From Chthoniobacterales bacterium (lineage in GTDB: Bacteria; Verrucomicrobiota; Verrucomicrobiia; Chthoniobacterales; UBA10450): a DNA stretch of 7,211 nt. Positions 73 to 7,211 of this stretch are shown one piece after another; the first letter of the stretch is position 1; each line of letters begins with the position of its first letter. The translations under genes were made by a program, and so were the position numbers. The stretch is from positions 1 to 7,211 of the forward strand of contig JACCZQ010000336.1 in assembly GCA_013695905.1 (NCBI GenBank), in the 5' to 3' direction. The notes beneath the pieces were generated by a model that was given only the letters and a program-made list of their open reading frames with translations, made no database searches and was not told the origin of the DNA.

Positions 73-996
73 TTACGGCGGCGGTTGATTTTGAGGAACT
101 GGCGTGCCTGCTCCGGTGGGGTCGGCCACCTTGGGCGCGCCAGGCGGCAGGACTGTTCCCTGAATTTCACCCGGAGGCGGCTCGCCCTCGGGCCGATCTG
201 CAACGCGCTCCTCGGTGGGCGGCTGAACCGGGCCGCCGCCAAGTTCGATGCGTTCCTTCAGCCACTCCTGATATTCCTCCTGCGTGTCCACCACGAGCAT
301 GCCTTTCATGCTGTAGTGGCCGAGGCCGCAGAGCTGTCCGCAGACAATCTCATAGCTGCCGGTTTTGATCGGCTTGAACCACATGGGGATGATCTGGCCG
401 GGGATCGCATCCTGTGCCGCGCGCATGCTCGGCACGGCGAAGTTGTGGATCACGTCCTTGGATGAAATGTCGATGATCACCGGCCGGTCCACCGGCACGT
501 GCAGCTCGTTCGCGACCACCAGATCGTCGTGACCTTCCGGGCTGTTCGGGTCGAGCCCGATGGGGTTGGTGTTGCTCACGAGCGCGAGCTCACGCCGTCC
601 GAATTGTCCGTCGGGCCCGGGAAGGTGGAAGTTCCAGCCGAACTGCTGCCCGATCGCGTGCACGAGAATGGCATCTTTGGTGTCCGGGAATTCATTGACG
701 AATTTCCCCCAGAGCGGGATGGCGAAGCCAATGAGCAGCACCGCTTCGATGAGCACGACGGCGAATTCGAGGTGCGTGGAGACGCCGTTTTTCACGCCTT
801 CATGATCAGCGACCGGATTGCGGCTCTTGCGGAAACGGATCAGCACATAAACGAAAAACGCGGACCAGCCGACGAAGAGCGCCCCCATGAACCAGTGGCT
901 GAACTCGATGATATGGTCGATCTGGTAGCCGTGCTCGGAGGCGTTCGGCGGTTGACCGAGGAACTCGTTAATCAACGCGAGTGGGGCGCTAATCAT
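73..996 (-). CDS. ctaC: cytochrome c oxidase subunit II with CuA domain and Pro-rich tail
   Basis: Subunit II accepts electrons from cytochrome c through its binuclear CuA centre and passes them to heme a of CtaD. The 307 residues contain two membrane helices (about 32-54 and 78-98) and a periplasmic cupredoxin domain. All main CuA ligands are present: H184 (DVIHNF), C219, C223, H227 and M230 in C-G-Q-L-C-G-L-G-H-Y-S-M. The usual Glu between the two Cys is Gln221. The Trp normally used for electron entry (first Trp of the QWYW motif) is Phe119, while the second Trp is kept (W121). No lipobox is visible at the N-terminus. The tail from about 253 to 307 is Pro/Gly/Glu-rich without CxxCH, so this is not a caa3-type fusion. 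The ATG overlaps the preceding stop by 8 bases. Finding subunit II last in the operon is unusual. Confidence 0.96.
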   Translation of the reverse strand: MISAPLALINEFLGQPPNASEHGYQIDHIIEFSHWFMGALFVGWSAFFVYVLIRFRKSRNPVADHEGVKNGVSTHLEFAVVLIEAVLLIGFAIPLWGKFVNEFPDTKDAILVHAIGQQFGWNFHLPGPDGQFGRRELALVSNTNPIGLDPNSPEGHDDLVVANELHVPVDRPVIIDISSKDVIHNFAVPSMRAAQDAIPGQIIPMWFKPIKTGSYEIVCGQLCGLGHYSMKGMLVVDTQEEYQEWLKERIELGGGPVQPPTEERVADRPEGEPPPGEIQGTVLPPGAPKVADPTGAGTPVPQNQPPP

Positions 997-1246
997 ACTT
1001 TTCTAAATCTTCTTCTGCTAATTCCTGGTGCGGTTCGAGCGGCATCCGCTCGTGGCGCCAGAGGTGGAAACCGAACGCACTTATCCCGGCGAGCACCGCC
1101 ATCACAGCGGCCAACAAAAACCAGATCGCGATCGCCATGCTCTCCGAGGACTTCGAGCCGCGTTCGCCGAAGCAGACGGCGCAGGCGAACACCTCACTCA
1201 ATGAAATGAGCAGGAGAAACGCGCAGAGGAAGAGCTTCGTCTTCAT
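989..1246 (-). CDS. small exported or anchored protein with CxxC motif, next to subunit II, unknown function
   Basis: The 85-residue product has an N-terminal hydrophobic signal-like segment (about 3-20), then A-C22-A-V-C25-F-G just after a plausible signal peptidase site. A short polar stretch, one membrane helix (about 38-62) and an acidic C-terminus follow. V-F-A-C resembles a loose lipobox, so C22 could alternatively be lipidated. If the first segment is cleaved, the CxxC lies outside the membrane, where it could bind copper or act in thiol-disulfide exchange. It is placed directly before ctaC, which needs two Cu ions in its CuA site, so a role in CuA assembly is an attractive inference but unproven. 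The start at 1246 was chosen because it overlaps the upstream stop as ATGA and gives a clean signal peptide. The open frame continues upstream to 1384 but would lie inside the previous gene. Its TAG overlaps ctaC by 8 bases. Confidence 0.8.
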   Translation of the reverse strand: MKTKLFLCAFLLLISLSEVFACAVCFGERGSKSSESMAIAIWFLLAAVMAVLAGISAFGFHLWRHERMPLEPHQELAEEDLEKYD

Positions 1247-1452: not shown

Positions 1453-1809
1453 TTAACGGACAACGGGATCGTACCAGGCCAGGTAGGTGAGCCAGAAAAG
1501 AACGAGCACGAAAAACGTGGTGAAGATCAGAATCTGATAAACCAGGTGCCGCTCTGCGGAGAGGTGCATGAAAATCGCCGCGACGAGCCCGGCTTTGAAC
1601 GTCGCTACGAGCATGCCGACGGCGATGTTCGCCTTGTGGGAGCCGAAGTCGAAGTACGAGAGGGCGACCGTGATGATGGTGAAGATCATCAGCAGCCCAC
1701 CGACCATCAGATATTTCTTGATGTGCTTCGAGACGTCGTGGTGATCGTCATGTTCAGGATGAGCCTGCACGACAGACTCGGAAGCGGCGGGCGAGTTGGA
1801 TTCGTTCAT
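1453..1809 (-). CDS. ctaF: cytochrome c oxidase subunit IV, prokaryotic type
   Basis: This 118-residue protein has a hydrophilic His/Asp-rich N-terminus and three membrane helices at about 33-53, 60-83 and 91-112. The central helix reads F-K-A-G-L-V-A-A-I-F-M-H-L, which is the hallmark of the bacterial subunit IV (COX4-pro) family. The family is a non-catalytic accessory subunit of aa3 and bo3 oxidases, thought to aid assembly or stability. The start ATG lies 2 bases after the ctaE stop, and the TAA stop abuts the next ATG with no gap (TAAATG), which suggests translational coupling. No Shine-Dalgarno is visible. Five His at residues 17-29 echo the His-rich N-terminus of CtaD. Confidence 0.92.
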   Translation of the reverse strand: MNESNSPAASESVVQAHPEHDDHHDVSKHIKKYLMVGGLLMIFTIITVALSYFDFGSHKANIAVGMLVATFKAGLVAAIFMHLSAERHLVYQILIFTTFFVLVLFWLTYLAWYDPVVR

Positions 1810-2705: not shown

Positions 2706-4598
2706 TTAATCGTGCGCAGCAGCAGCCGCTTCGTAAGCACGCCGGTCGCTGTCCCGGATCGGCTCGTTTTGCATTGTGAAATCCCGCTCGCGGCCCGGCA
2801 GACTGTATTCGTATGGTCCACGATGGGCCGTCGGGACGACGGCGAAGTTTCCGTGTGGCGGTGGTGAAGGTGCAGCCCACTCCAGGGTGGTCGCTTCCCA
2901 CGGGTTGTCGTTCACTTTCTTCCCATATTTGATGCTCCAGAAGAAATTGATGATGAACGGGATCTGCGCCAAACCCATTACCCAGGCGGCGATGGAGATC
3001 GGCACGTTCCATTCGAAGCCGCTGAGGCCCCAGACTTTCTCATTGGAAAGCGCCCAGCCCTGCCCGCCATCATACCAGCGGCGGTGAATGCTCAGCATTC
3101 CCTGCAGGAACATCGGGAGAAAGATCACATTCATGCAGATGAGCGACGGCCAGAAATGCACTTTCCCCCAGAATTCGCTCATCATTCGGCCCGTCGCTTT
3201 CGGGAACCAGAAGTAAACCCCCGCGAACAGGGCGAAGATGGTGCCCGGCGCCACGATGTAGTGGAAGTGAGCGATCACGTAATAGGTGTCGTGCAGGTAA
3301 ATGTCGGCCGCATTGAACGCGAGCGGGATGCCCGTCAGACCACCGATGCCGAACATCGGCAGGAACGCCGTGGCGAACAGCATCGGGGTGTTGAAGCGGA
3401 TCGAGCCGCCCCAGAGCGAGATGAAGAACGCGCTCAGAATGATGACCGACGGAATCGAGATGATCAGCGTCGTCGTTTGGAAGAAGGCGCTCACCACCGT
3501 TCCCATGCCGGTGAGCCACATGTGATGCGCCCACACGATGAAGGAGAGGAAACCGAGGACCAGCGCCGCGAAGACGAGTGACTTGTAGCCCCAGAGCGGC
3601 TTGCGGGTGTTGTTGGCGAGAATCTCCGCCACGATGCCCATCGCGGGGAGAATGAGCACGTAGACCTCGGGGTGACCGAGGAACCAGAACAGATGCTGCC
3701 ACAGGATGGGACTGCCACCGCCGCTGATGTTCAGCGCGGCGCCACTCACCACCAGGCCAGTCGGCATGAAGAAGCTCGTTGCCGCCAGGCGATCCATCAG
3801 CTGCATCACGGCCGCGGCTTCGAGTGGCGGGAAAGCGAGCAGGAGCAGAAAGGCGGTGATGAACTGCGCCCAGACGAAAAACGGCAGCCGCATCCAGGTG
3901 AGCCCCTTCGCGCGCAGCTGGATGATGGTCGTGATAAAGTTCACCGCCCCAAGGAGCGAGGAGGTAATCAGGAAGACGAAGCCGATCAGCCAGAGCGTCT
4001 GCCCGTTCATGATTATATGGTGTCCCGGGCCGGAATCCGCGATCACCGAGAGCGGCGTGTAAGCTGTCCAGCCGCTCTTGGCCGCGCCCCCTGGCACGAA
4101 GAAACTGATCAGCATGATGATGCCACCGACGAAAAACGCCCAGTAGCTCGCCATGTTGATCTTCGGAAAGGTCATGTCCGGCGCGCCGATCTGCAGCGGC
4201 ACGACGTAATTTCCGAACGCGGCGAACGCCACCGGCACGACGCCGAGGAAGATCATGATCGTGCCGTGCATCGCGCCTAACGAGTTGTAGAAATCCGGCG
4301 CCATGATGCCTTCCGGCATGCTGCCGCGGCCGAAGAGCACGTTCAGCATCGGCCCGAGGACCGGCAGAGCCTTGCCCGGGTAGGCGAGCTGCCACCGCAT
4401 CAGCATCATCAGGGTGAAGCCGAGGAAGAGGAAAATCAGCCCGGTGATCAGGTACTGAATGCCGATGACCTTGTGATCGGTCGAGAAAACATACTTCCGC
4501 CACCAGCCGAGCTCGTGATGATCGTGCCCGTGCTCGTCGTGGTGGTGCGGATCGTGAGCCGCGGGAGCGTGCGAAGTAAGATCAGCAGATGGATCCAT
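2706..4598 (-). CDS. ctaD: aa3-type cytochrome c oxidase subunit I (A-family heme-copper oxidase)
   Basis: This 630-residue polytopic protein is the catalytic subunit that reduces O2 to water and pumps protons in the cytoplasmic membrane. Visible ligands are H111 (HGTIMIF) and H446 for low-spin heme a, H444 (VIAHFHY) for heme a3, and H309, H358 and H359 for CuB. Y313 in GHPEVY is placed for the His-Tyr crosslink. The D-channel is intact: N130, D141 (GAPDM), N148 and E311. H436-D437 and R506-R507 match the Mg/heme-propionate region. The K-channel lysine is missing: I387 occupies its place in IPSVIIL. The N-terminus has nine His in residues 10-28. About 15 residues (MPTGLVVSGAALNIS, about 278-292) are extra before the GHPEVY helix compared with mitochondrial-type enzymes. 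It is the first gene of the operon and ctaE follows after 18 bases. Class assignment is certain; the subfamily is from hand alignment. Confidence 0.97.
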   Translation of the reverse strand: MDPSADLTSHAPAAHDPHHHDEHGHDHHELGWWRKYVFSTDHKVIGIQYLITGLIFLFLGFTLMMLMRWQLAYPGKALPVLGPMLNVLFGRGSMPEGIMAPDFYNSLGAMHGTIMIFLGVVPVAFAAFGNYVVPLQIGAPDMTFPKINMASYWAFFVGGIIMLISFFVPGGAAKSGWTAYTPLSVIADSGPGHHIIMNGQTLWLIGFVFLITSSLLGAVNFITTIIQLRAKGLTWMRLPFFVWAQFITAFLLLLAFPPLEAAAVMQLMDRLAATSFFMPTGLVVSGAALNISGGGSPILWQHLFWFLGHPEVYVLILPAMGIVAEILANNTRKPLWGYKSLVFAALVLGFLSFIVWAHHMWLTGMGTVVSAFFQTTTLIISIPSVIILSAFFISLWGGSIRFNTPMLFATAFLPMFGIGGLTGIPLAFNAADIYLHDTYYVIAHFHYIVAPGTIFALFAGVYFWFPKATGRMMSEFWGKVHFWPSLICMNVIFLPMFLQGMLSIHRRWYDGGQGWALSNEKVWGLSGFEWNVPISIAAWVMGLAQIPFIINFFWSIKYGKKVNDNPWEATTLEWAAPSPPPHGNFAVVPTAHRGPYEYSLPGRERDFTMQNEPIRDSDRRAYEAAAAAHD

Positions 4599-4703: not shown

Positions 4704-5699
4704 TCACGCGCCCTCGGGCACCGTTTCCTCCTCCCGCAGCTGGACTTCGCGGAAGCGCCGGAGGGAGTGATTCCGGAGGCTTTCTTCAAATAAATCGCGA
4801 TTGATCGCCTGGGCCGCCGCTGCGCCCTCACCAGCGGCGATGATCATCTGGCAATTCGCGGGTGTGACACACCCGGCCGCGTAAAGATTCGGCACCGTCG
4901 TGCGCATGCAATGGTCCACGACGATCTGTCCGTCCTGGTCCAGCTTCGCGCCGAGCTGCTCCGCGAGTTCCGTGTGGAAAATGTCGCCGCGCGTTGTGAA
5001 GATGTAGTCGATCTTCACTTCCTGATCATTCTCCAGGCGCAGCCCGAGGATCTGCCGCTCACGATGCCTCACATCCGCGATTCGGACAGTGTGCACGGGG
5101 ATTTCATATTCTTCGATCCAGGCCGCGTGCTGTTCGCTCCAGTGCGGCTGCTCGCCGTTGGTAGCGATCATCACGCACGGTGAATAGAGGAGCATACCCA
5201 GTGCATATTCGACTGCTTCGTCGTTCGCGCCGCAGATGGCGATCCGCTTCTCCTGCACGCGGTAGCCGTCGCAATCCTTGCAGAAAAACATGCTATGGCC
5301 GAGGCATTCCTTCACCCCGGGAATCTCCGGCGGACGGTGGAATATTCCGGTCGCGAGGAGGAGCCGTTTCGCGTGGTAACTTTTCTTCCCGTGCAGGACG
5401 AAGACACCGTCGTCGCCCTTCTCGATGCGCTCGATCTTGTCCTCGGTAAATCGCACTTCGTGCCGCTGCGCCTGCTGGCGTCCGAATTTCAGCAGCTCCT
5501 CGCCATGGACGCCCTCGGGGAAGCCAAGATAATTTTCCACCTTCGGCTCCCATTGCGCCATGGAGTGACCGGAGTCGATCACCAGCGTGTCCCGTTGGGC
5601 GCGGCCAAGATAGATCGCGGCTGATAATCCGGCCAGGCCGCCGCCCACGACGATCACCTCCCGCACCCGTGGGTCGTCCATGTCTTTGTGCTGAATCAT
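4704..5699 (-). CDS. thioredoxin-reductase-like FAD/NAD(P)-dependent oxidoreductase
   Basis: This 331-residue protein has the two-domain thioredoxin reductase layout. The FAD-binding Gly-rich loop is at 19-24 (GGGLAG after a VIVV strand), ATG at 116-118 closes the FAD domain, and a redox CxxC sits at C140-K-D-C143 followed by D-G. The NAD(P) domain starts at about 152, and the C-terminal FAD motif is at about 273-280. Departures from classical TrxB are clear. The second nucleotide loop is C-G-A-N-D-E-A (156-162) instead of GxGxxA/G. The HRRxxxR motif that binds the NADPH 2'-phosphate is absent, replaced by a T-N-G-E-Q-P segment. The Asp of the usual A-A-G-D motif is Cys277. There are eight Cys in all. 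It could reduce a thioredoxin-like or other thiol partner, but the substrate cannot be told. An in-frame ATG at 5681 is an alternative start; neither has a convincing Shine-Dalgarno. It lies alone between two oxidase operons, same strand. Confidence 0.85.
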   Translation of the reverse strand: MIQHKDMDDPRVREVIVVGGGLAGLSAAIYLGRAQRDTLVIDSGHSMAQWEPKVENYLGFPEGVHGEELLKFGRQQAQRHEVRFTEDKIERIEKGDDGVFVLHGKKSYHAKRLLLATGIFHRPPEIPGVKECLGHSMFFCKDCDGYRVQEKRIAICGANDEAVEYALGMLLYSPCVMIATNGEQPHWSEQHAAWIEEYEIPVHTVRIADVRHRERQILGLRLENDQEVKIDYIFTTRGDIFHTELAEQLGAKLDQDGQIVVDHCMRTTVPNLYAAGCVTPANCQMIIAAGEGAAAAQAINRDLFEESLRNHSLRRFREVQLREEETVPEGA

Positions 5700-5898: not shown

Positions 5899-6651
5899 TT
5901 ACGGTGCGCCCGGCGGAGGAGCAGCGCCTTGGCCATCAGCCGGGGCAGGCTCCGGCAGATTGTCGTCGTCGGCGATCGCTTTCAATTCATCTTCGCGATA
6001 AAGCGCGGTGCGACCGGCTAATTCCTTGCGCAATGCAGCCACGCCCTCAGGCGCCACAGGACCACTGGTGTTCCCCCAGGCCTGCCGGATGTAGGTGAGC
6101 ACATCGGCGATGCGCTGGTCGTTCAGGGTCTTCTCCCACGGCTGCATCACGGCGGAGCCGTACTGCACACCTTTGGCAGTGTGCGGACCTTCAAACCCCT
6201 TCAAGAGAATCATGCCCAGCCGGCGCGTGCCGCTGTTTACCCACTCCGAGCCGGCGAGCGGCGGGTATTGTCCTGCGACACCGGTGCCGTTCGCCTGGTG
6301 GCAGGTGGCGCAGTTTGCGGAGTAAACCTTCTGGCCGCGTTCCACTGGACCGGCAACCCCTTGAGGTTGCTCCGGACCCGGCCCGTCTTTCTTCGCGCCG
6401 GCTCCGGCGTCGGTGGACCAGTCCAGCCCGTCGCCGGTGAAGTTCCCCGCGTAGCGCCCGAGATAGGCGCCGCCGAAAAACACCGCCAGGCCGTAAATGG
6501 CGATCAACCAAATCGAGAGCGGTTCCAAGCCGGCACGCGGTTCGTGTTTCTCCCGCTGAATGGCGGCGTGCACCTGCTGCACGTCTTTAGTTTCGCCGTA
6601 ATCCATTCCCTGGCGGCGACGCGGTTCCGGCGTGGGCGTTCCTTCGTTCAT
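5899..6651 (-). CDS. membrane-anchored monoheme class I cytochrome c (CcoP-like position)
   Basis: This 250-residue protein has a hydrophilic N-terminus, one membrane helix at about 45-64, a Gly/Pro-rich linker, and a class I cytochrome c domain. Heme attaches at C114-A-T-C117-H118, and M169 (in SAVMQPW) is the likely sixth ligand. The C-terminus (about 231-250) is a Pro/Ala tail. The anchor places the heme domain outside the cytoplasmic membrane, where it should carry electrons to or within the oxidase encoded upstream. Canonical CcoP is a diheme protein; this one has a single CxxCH, so it would replace rather than match CcoP. The start was chosen because its ATG overlaps the upstream stop (ATGA at 6648-6651). 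The frame is open further upstream to an ATG-like codon at 6807, but that would overlap ccoO and adds sequence without family character. Noncoding DNA with hairpins follows the stop, so it is probably the last gene of its operon. Confidence 0.9.
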   Translation of the reverse strand: MNEGTPTPEPRRRQGMDYGETKDVQQVHAAIQREKHEPRAGLEPLSIWLIAIYGLAVFFGGAYLGRYAGNFTGDGLDWSTDAGAGAKKDGPGPEQPQGVAGPVERGQKVYSANCATCHQANGTGVAGQYPPLAGSEWVNSGTRRLGMILLKGFEGPHTAKGVQYGSAVMQPWEKTLNDQRIADVLTYIRQAWGNTSGPVAPEGVAALRKELAGRTALYREDELKAIADDDNLPEPAPADGQGAAPPPGAP

Positions 6652-7211
6652 TGCCCTGCCCCCGTGCCCGCAGCCGGAGCTGCACCTGCCACTGGTGCGG
6701 CGGGCGCTGCACCCGGTGGTTTCACTTCGTTCAAGGGATGCGATTGATCCAGCGACATAAGATACGCCACAAGATCCTTCGCATCCTGCGTCGGCACAAT
6801 CTCCCAACCCGGAGGCGGTCCGCCGCCGCCGGCAAAGCGGACGGCATCAGCCGACGGTGCCGAGCCGATGCGCTGCTTCTTATAAAGGTAGCGGAAGGAA
6901 GGCATCGTCGAGTTCAAGCTGATGCTGCGCGGATCGTAGAGATGGCGGTGATGCCAGGCGGCGGAATACTGGAGCGGCTCCTCCAGGTTCGGTGCGCCTG
7001 CTGCTGCGGGGGGCGCCATCGGTGCGGTCGCGACGGCAGTTTCAGCGCGCGTCGCGGGCGCGGGAGAAGGAGCGCCCTGCCCGGCCGCGATCTGCTCTGC
7101 AGGCGTGCCGGCTGGAGTCGGCGGGGTGGTGTTCTCGCGCTCGCCCGGTTTCGGATCTGCTGCGGGTGAAGAGGCAACGGCGGGGCTCGCGGCAGGTGCT
7201 GCACCTCCTGG
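6648..7211 (-). CDS. ccoO: cbb3-type cytochrome c oxidase subunit II (CcoO-like), C-terminal part, runs off the window edge
   Basis: The frame is open to the window edge, so only the last 187 residues are visible and the start lies outside. Visible residues 82-103 contain Y-S-A-A-W-H-H-R-H-L-Y-D-P-R-S followed by S-T-M-P. This is the C-terminal CcoO signature, in which the Met (visible residue 103) is the expected axial heme ligand. The CxxCH heme motif is not in the visible part and should lie upstream. CcoO is the membrane-anchored monoheme cytochrome of cbb3 oxidase and passes electrons to CcoN. Two things are odd. Visible residues 1-75 are an Ala/Pro-rich low-complexity stretch directly before the signature, where family members usually have a short Gly-Pro-Asp-Leu region. 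A second Ala/Pro/Gly-rich tail ends the protein. The stop overlaps the next start as ATGA. Identity rests on the motif block; a CcoN-CcoO fusion cannot be excluded. Confidence 0.75.
   Translation of the reverse strand, partial: PGGAAPAASPAVASSPAADPKPGERENTTPPTPAGTPAEQIAAGQGAPSPAPATRAETAVATAPMAPPAAAGAPNLEEPLQYSAAWHHRHLYDPRSISLNSTMPSFRYLYKKQRIGSAPSADAVRFAGGGGPPPGWEIVPTQDAKDLVAYLMSLDQSHPLNEVKPPGAAPAAPVAGAAPAAGTGAGQ

Follow-up and report, generated by a model that had tools for sequence, protein, structure and literature searches.

The window analysed here, a stretch of 7,211 nucleotides, raises the question of how an oxidase that resembles the A family can work when the lysine of its K channel is missing. 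Active-site reduction stops when this lysine is mutated, and for this reason it is regarded as indispensable in A-family oxidases, among them mitochondrial complex IV. The ctaD gene of the window (Table 1), which occupies 4598 to 2706 of the minus strand, encodes a subunit I of 630 amino acids without that lysine, and a reading of the letters alone (the sequence-only reading) had concluded that the enzyme must use another route or a modified mechanism. The comparisons reported below favour a modified mechanism; another route appears less likely than the same route rebuilt, given the conserved Glu84 of subunit II.

Table 1. Coordinates of the features discussed, numbered from the first letter of the window.
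Feature	Position	Strand	Basis
ctaC, subunit II, two membrane helices (model: 23-55, 72-100) and CuA domain	73..996	-	
CuA ligand motif CxxxCxxxHxxM (Cys219 to Met230)	307..342	-	invariant in 30 clade sequences
Glu84 of subunit II, in mid-helix, proposed substitute for the Lys	745..747	-	clade counts
Glu77 of subunit II, K-channel entry Glu (R. sphaeroides E101)	766..768	-	47/52 clade rows; 41/41 Lys-bearing rows
Predicted membrane protein, 85 residues, CAVCFG motif, between ctaF and ctaC	989-1246	-	
Subunit IV (ctaF-like)	1453..1809	-	PF03626; TIGR02229 above cut-off
Subunit III (ctaE-like), long inserted loop	1812..2687	-	PF00510 in two pieces
ctaD, cytochrome c oxidase subunit I, A-family by homology, without K-channel Lys	2706..4598	-	PF00115, TIGR02891, PDB alignments
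Ile387, site of K-channel Lys (R. sphaeroides K362, P. denitrificans K354)	3438..3440	-	ungapped alignment
Ser384, site of K-channel Thr (Thr359 R. sphaeroides, Thr351 P. denitrificans)	3447..3449	-	Ser in 64/64 clade rows
Ala324, site of K-channel Ser (Ser299 R. sphaeroides, Ser291 P. denitrificans)	3627..3629	-	alignment and clade counts
Glu311-Val312-Tyr313, D-channel Glu and active-site Tyr	3660..3668	-	E311, Y313 each 64/64
D-channel Asn130, Asp141, Asn148	4155..4211	-	each 61/64; remainder 2 gaps and 1 row with other letters
Thioredoxin-reductase-like FAD enzyme directly upstream of ctaD	4704-5699	-	
CcoP-like and FixO-like cytochrome genes, right end of the window	5899-7211	-	

CtaD matches PF00115 with 435 bits. 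Against TIGR02891, the NCBIfam CtaD_CoxA equivalog, it scores 573.2 bits, which is below the curated cut-off of 670.75 and places it outside the equivalog; this may be a further hint of a distinct type. The COX1 fold is present, and the histidine ligands of heme and CuB (H111, H309, H358, H359, H444 and H446) are invariant in 26 aligned sequences. The active-site tyrosine, Y313, lies in helix VI (HPEVY), and the D-channel set, which in the A1 type includes Glu278, is found as N130, D141, N148 and E311, so that the sequence-only reading, which had listed these four, is confirmed by the alignment and the clade counts. The CuA subunit II of an A-type enzyme is there as well, with H184, C219, C223, H227 and M230 invariant in 30 sequences. 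It is the K channel that departs from the type: the A-type set given in Table 2 of PMC3084760, Lys354, Thr351, Ser291 and Tyr280, reads Ile387, Ser384, Ala324 and Tyr313 here.

The closest of the known systems considered are the aa3 oxidases of R. sphaeroides and P. denitrificans (A1), with which 568 residues of subunit I could be aligned (E ~1e-117) and which have the same metal ligands, active-site Tyr, D-channel residues and CuA subunit II. Unlike them, the window enzyme has Ile for K362, Ala for S299 and, in subunit II, Glu for the Pro seven residues beyond E101. The ba3 oxidase of Thermus thermophilus (B type) resembles it in having a K path without the Lys (PMC3084760, Table 2), but the similarity is much weaker (E ~1e-5), and B types, with their alternative K channel, lack the D-channel whose residues the window enzyme keeps.

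In HMMER alignments with subunit I of 1m56 (R. sphaeroides) and of 1ar1 (P. denitrificans), the segment from Pro383 to Gly397-Gly398 runs without a gap, just as had been argued from the spacing, and Ile387 falls on K362/K354; its codon, AAT on the plus strand at 3438-3440, is ATT on the minus strand. The placing of Ser384 at the neighbouring Thr site (359/351) also holds, while the loss of the K-channel Ser at Ala324 goes beyond what had been noticed before. Residue 387 is I in 58, V in 3 and L in 3 of the 64 usable rows of the window clade (duplicates of one gene were kept, and 6 rows of the whole set were dropped as incomplete or as the wrong piece), and it is Ile in all 119 database homologs, the window itself excluded, among the best 120 of 7998 matches. 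Because clade rows and listed homologs conserve the site, Ile387 is neither a sequencing error nor chance, and these homologs together with the ungapped alignment rule out a misalignment too. Residue 324 is more variable in the window clade (A 41, G 9, T 8, S 4, I 1 and V 1 in 64 rows); the corresponding site in Lys-bearing rows is S in 38 and N in 1 of 39.

A tree of 85 rows was built after the removal of 13 others (L072 and twelve rows that were close kin or near copies), and in it the window-type Lys-less rows, 40 in number, form one clade with 99% SH-aLRT support. The clade records name eight phyla (Verrucomicrobiota, Omnitrophota, Fidelibacterota (Marinimicrobia), Acidobacteriota, Planctomycetota, Myxococcota, Bacteroidota and Hydrogenedentota), as taken from the titles of records that are nearly all metagenome bins, where single assignments may be wrong. 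Judged from these sequences, a large clade as a whole has lost the Lys, which is absent from further A-family lineages too.

A search for substitute protonatable residues near helix VIII and subunit II had been suggested as a check on the original observation; the candidate found is Glu84, in the second of the two subunit II membrane helices. This site holds Glu in 49 and Asp in 1 of 52 rows of the window clade, the remaining 2 having Glu under a shifted gap; in Lys-bearing rows it holds Pro (28), Thr (12) or Val (1). The single Asp, in L134, is a conservative swap. Counted over distinct members of the clade with a readable subunit II, an acid mid-way in the second helix is present in 62 of 62, all Glu with that one exception. 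In four of the 52 rows (L053, L060, L069 and L071) the entry Glu77 is missing, yet the deeper acid is kept. It should be noted that the idea of the acid was formed on a first set of loci, and that much of the supporting data comes from samples gathered afterwards: 16 later-sampled relatives agree with it, one of them with Asp, and ten further members of the window clade with Glu came from 46 genomes sampled in the phylum to which L072 belongs. The first membrane helix of subunit II also has residues typical of the Lys-less clade, namely His34 and Met37 (49/52 each) and Trp44 (52/52).

The same 46-genome sample contains a second Lys-less type, with Met as the usual residue at the Lys site. Its members (Puniceicoccaceae K14, L108, and sequences bearing Myxococcales, Nannocystaceae, Bdellovibrionales and SAR324 names) resemble the window enzyme in lacking the Lys, in keeping S381 and the D-channel, and in having an acid in the second helix of subunit II. 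They differ from it in this acid, which is Asp instead of Glu (20 of 20 read), and around the Lys site: among 120 listed database relatives of L108 the site itself is Met in 99, Ile in 10, Leu in 10 and Val in 1, and the adjoining residue 386 is Glu in 96, which it is not in the window clade. In all 120, residue 384 is I, V or L and residue 389 is F. A third type, sampled from Acidobacteriota and Planctomycetota, replaces the Lys by Val, Phe, Tyr, Ile or Leu and has a Glu in subunit II in 17 of 17 cases, and a fourth (L229 and L235) has the Glu in both of its members. Two genomes have both a Met-type and a window-type Lys-less ctaD, separated by about 5 kb of the same contig (L189/L199 on G317:C32 and L190/L200 on G316:C255).

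Several other residues were considered as the trait common to Lys-less enzymes. The hydroxyls of helix VIII at 384 and 389 were rejected since they are absent from the Met type, and so was the Glu at site 386, which is frequent in the Met type but missing from the window clade. Many Met-type subunits II carry a Glu in TM1; some Lys-bearing subunits II carry one too. Glu260 in helix V of subunit I (3819-3821, minus strand) is Glu in 59 of 64 rows of the window clade and is not found in the Lys-bearing or Met-type sets compared. It was not adopted as a replacement, being specific to the clade, missing from the Met type and, by the usual topology, probably on the periplasmic half.

Over all distinct subunit pairs, the core of the second helix holds an acid in 101 of 103 Lys-less pairs versus 1 of 119 Lys-bearing pairs. 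The acid is lacking from two Lys-less pairs: L302, where the second helix seems short, and L256, with Gln for the Lys and changed D-channel residues. The sole Lys-bearing pair counted with an acid is L308, where Lys and Glu occur together, a combination that may, on its sequence, represent an intermediate. A ctaD paralog of Binatota, L239, has Gln for a CuB His and Glu for the Lys, and its subunit II helix carries no acid; its sequence suggests that it is likely degenerate and not an O2 reductase. It was set aside as such, and keeping it would make the Lys-less total 101/104, one more case against the rule.

These totals combine an automatic count with inspection by eye. Where the outer Trp could serve as an anchor, the acid mostly precedes it by 11-13 residues. 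The Trp-anchored count covered 113 Lys-bearing rows, of which 109 were clean and 4 were flagged (by eye, only the flag of L308 was real), and 96 Lys-less rows, of which 90 had an acid preceding the anchor by 9-13 residues (in L256 this was due to a wrong anchor). Segments of flagged, unanchored (6 Lys-bearing) and empty rows were judged by eye. Other automatic pickers often took TM1, the entry Glu or the CuA domain, and one of them scored the entry Glu in 14 Lys-bearing rows. Left uncounted were L072/L201 (subunit II cut off or not found), loci with no subunit II (L230-L232, L238, L296 and L301, Lys-less; L251 and L252, Lys-bearing) and duplicates, e.g. L254 and L316.

How often Lys and acid changed together was read from two trees. 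In the first, of 105 rows, the starred branches force three Lys changes, the acid goes with the Lys in all three independent pairs, and Lys-bearing enzymes surround both the third and the fourth type. A single loss of the Lys may underlie the window type and the Met type together, on a grouping that has 82% support and is not starred. The tree preceding this one used 25 of the 62 window-type rows and omitted six Lys-bearing rows; the 105-row tree also omitted L032 and L169 (long branches). The second tree, of 159 rows, includes added samples of Planctomycetota, Bacteroidota and Binatota and omits sixteen Lys-bearing near copies, with traits set by hand from the segments. In its best version the Lys changes five times, of which starred branches force four, and the third type, with 17 rows, is a single clade. 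The acid changes too at three of the five, not at the single rows L302 and L256, without which three Lys changes remain; in all, the acid changes four times, or three without L308. In the starred pairings of this tree the acid differs in the same way as the Lys in 2-3 of 4, in the opposite way never, and shows no difference in 1-2. A sign test cannot reach 0.05 because the independent events are too few, and at the level of sequence the case for a link between acid and Lys is one of strict conservation within clades and repeated coincidence, not of a significant test.

The explanation that we consider probable, with real room for doubt, is that this A-family-like oxidase has a rebuilt K channel, with Glu84 of the second subunit II helix at its centre. 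Entering near Glu77 of subunit II, protons would move on to Glu84 and from there, through water and Ser384, reach the active-site Tyr313; the D-channel would work as usual, conducting the pumped protons and the remaining substrate protons. We infer that Glu84 faces the old K path roughly at the height of the lost Lys, an estimate made from general helix geometry. In simulations of the R. sphaeroides oxidase described in PMC9687966, the position along the channel is -13 to -12 A for E101, -7 A for S365 and -2 A for a point just below K362. Seven residues up a straight helix correspond to about 10.5 A, on nearly the same face; with the helices registered on the Trp, Glu84 would instead come about 15 A above the entry Glu. 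From either register, Glu84 would come to the height of the missing Lys within a few angstroms, provided that the helix runs along the channel. Counted from the entry Glu, the window type has its acid at +7 and the Met type at about +15, so that the two types agree only in the Trp register.

The acid could, within each clade, have been inherited for another reason. The K path might be gone, the D-channel carrying all protons, those for active-site reduction included, and Glu84 serving structure, assembly or subunit contact. The conserved D-channel residues fit such an arrangement, as do L302 and L256, which have neither Lys nor acid, and use of a single path is described in PMC12901375 for B- and C-family enzymes, where it is the K path. 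The same source, however, reports that the equivalent of bovine K319M in the classical enzyme blocks heme a3 reduction. The recurrence of the acid in three Lys-less lineages that are separate on the tree, the conservative nature of the Asp in L134 and the invariance of Ser384 on the old path also speak against this reading, and we regard a D-channel-only enzyme as possible but rather doubtful.

A lysine-free K path of hydroxyls and water, like that of the B-family ba3 enzyme, with the subunit II acid merely tuning it, would find its elements in helix VIII, where Thr376, Ser381 and Ser384 are each found in 64 of 64 rows of the window clade and residue 389 is Ser or Thr in all of them; B-type K paths do put hydroxyl residues in place of the Lys (PMC3084760, Table 2). 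The Met type, however, has no hydroxyls at 384 and 389 in any of its 120 listed sequences, which makes the acid, and not the hydroxyls, the feature common to Lys-less enzymes, and such a path appears unlikely. It is very improbable, finally, that the protein is not a working O2 reductase at all, being a degenerate paralog or having some other activity. Nothing speaks for this directly, apart from the existence in the family of a degenerate paralog such as L239, but the ligands of heme, CuB and CuA and the active-site Tyr are conserved, and in the window's own assembly (76.7% complete) no COX1 gene was found beyond ctaD and a CcoN-like gene, which leaves CtaD as the sole A-family-like subunit I.

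A broader reading, to which we give about an even chance, is that the A-family K channel is modular and that in bacteria the protonatable residue at its centre shifted, on at least three occasions, from the Lys of subunit I to a Glu or Asp of subunit II. Were this true, the channel would need an ionisable group at that depth, but this group would have to be neither a Lys nor part of the catalytic subunit; an enzyme such as L308, with both residues, would be the intermediate. A widespread natural Lys-less class with an acid in the partner subunit would thus separate the requirement of the channel from the usual picture of it. Loss of the canonical K channel within family A is already reported for archaeal oxidases, for which PMC8239418 counts seven independent losses under one hypothesis; its section on these losses is silent on an acid in subunit II, and the likeness drawn here is to that description. 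To the extent that the open literature shows, the recurring acid of subunit II is the new part: no account of such an acid replacing the K-channel Lys was found there, and the subscription papers, which lay mostly outside the search, may hold one.

ctaD probably belongs to a larger array of genes. The right end of the window begins inside the FixO-like gene. Upstream stretches were sampled for ten relatives. In L172, L178, L179 (same contig as L034) and L045, alternative complex III is followed by a CcoN-like gene, FixO-like and CcoP-like cytochromes and then ctaD; the FAD enzyme lies in between in L172 and L179 and had no match in L178 and L045. Parts of the array stand at contig ends in L170, L171 and L173, none of its genes occurs within the stretch examined in L174, L176 and L177, and L175 has only a CcoP-like gene. 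L138 (G000:C75), a contig of the window's own assembly, has at its end alternative complex III (ActD, 191.8 bits against PF11821) together with a CcoN-like gene, which scores 177.5 bits against TIGR00780, below the cut-off of 583.15. The window and L138 probably carry parts of one array split between contigs, comprising alternative complex III, a C-family-like oxidase and the A-family-like oxidase. The 85-residue protein with the CAVCFG motif had no family match in the profile searches, and genes like it occupy the same place in several relatives. The insert of subunit III, between the two pieces matched by PF00510, is long and polar.
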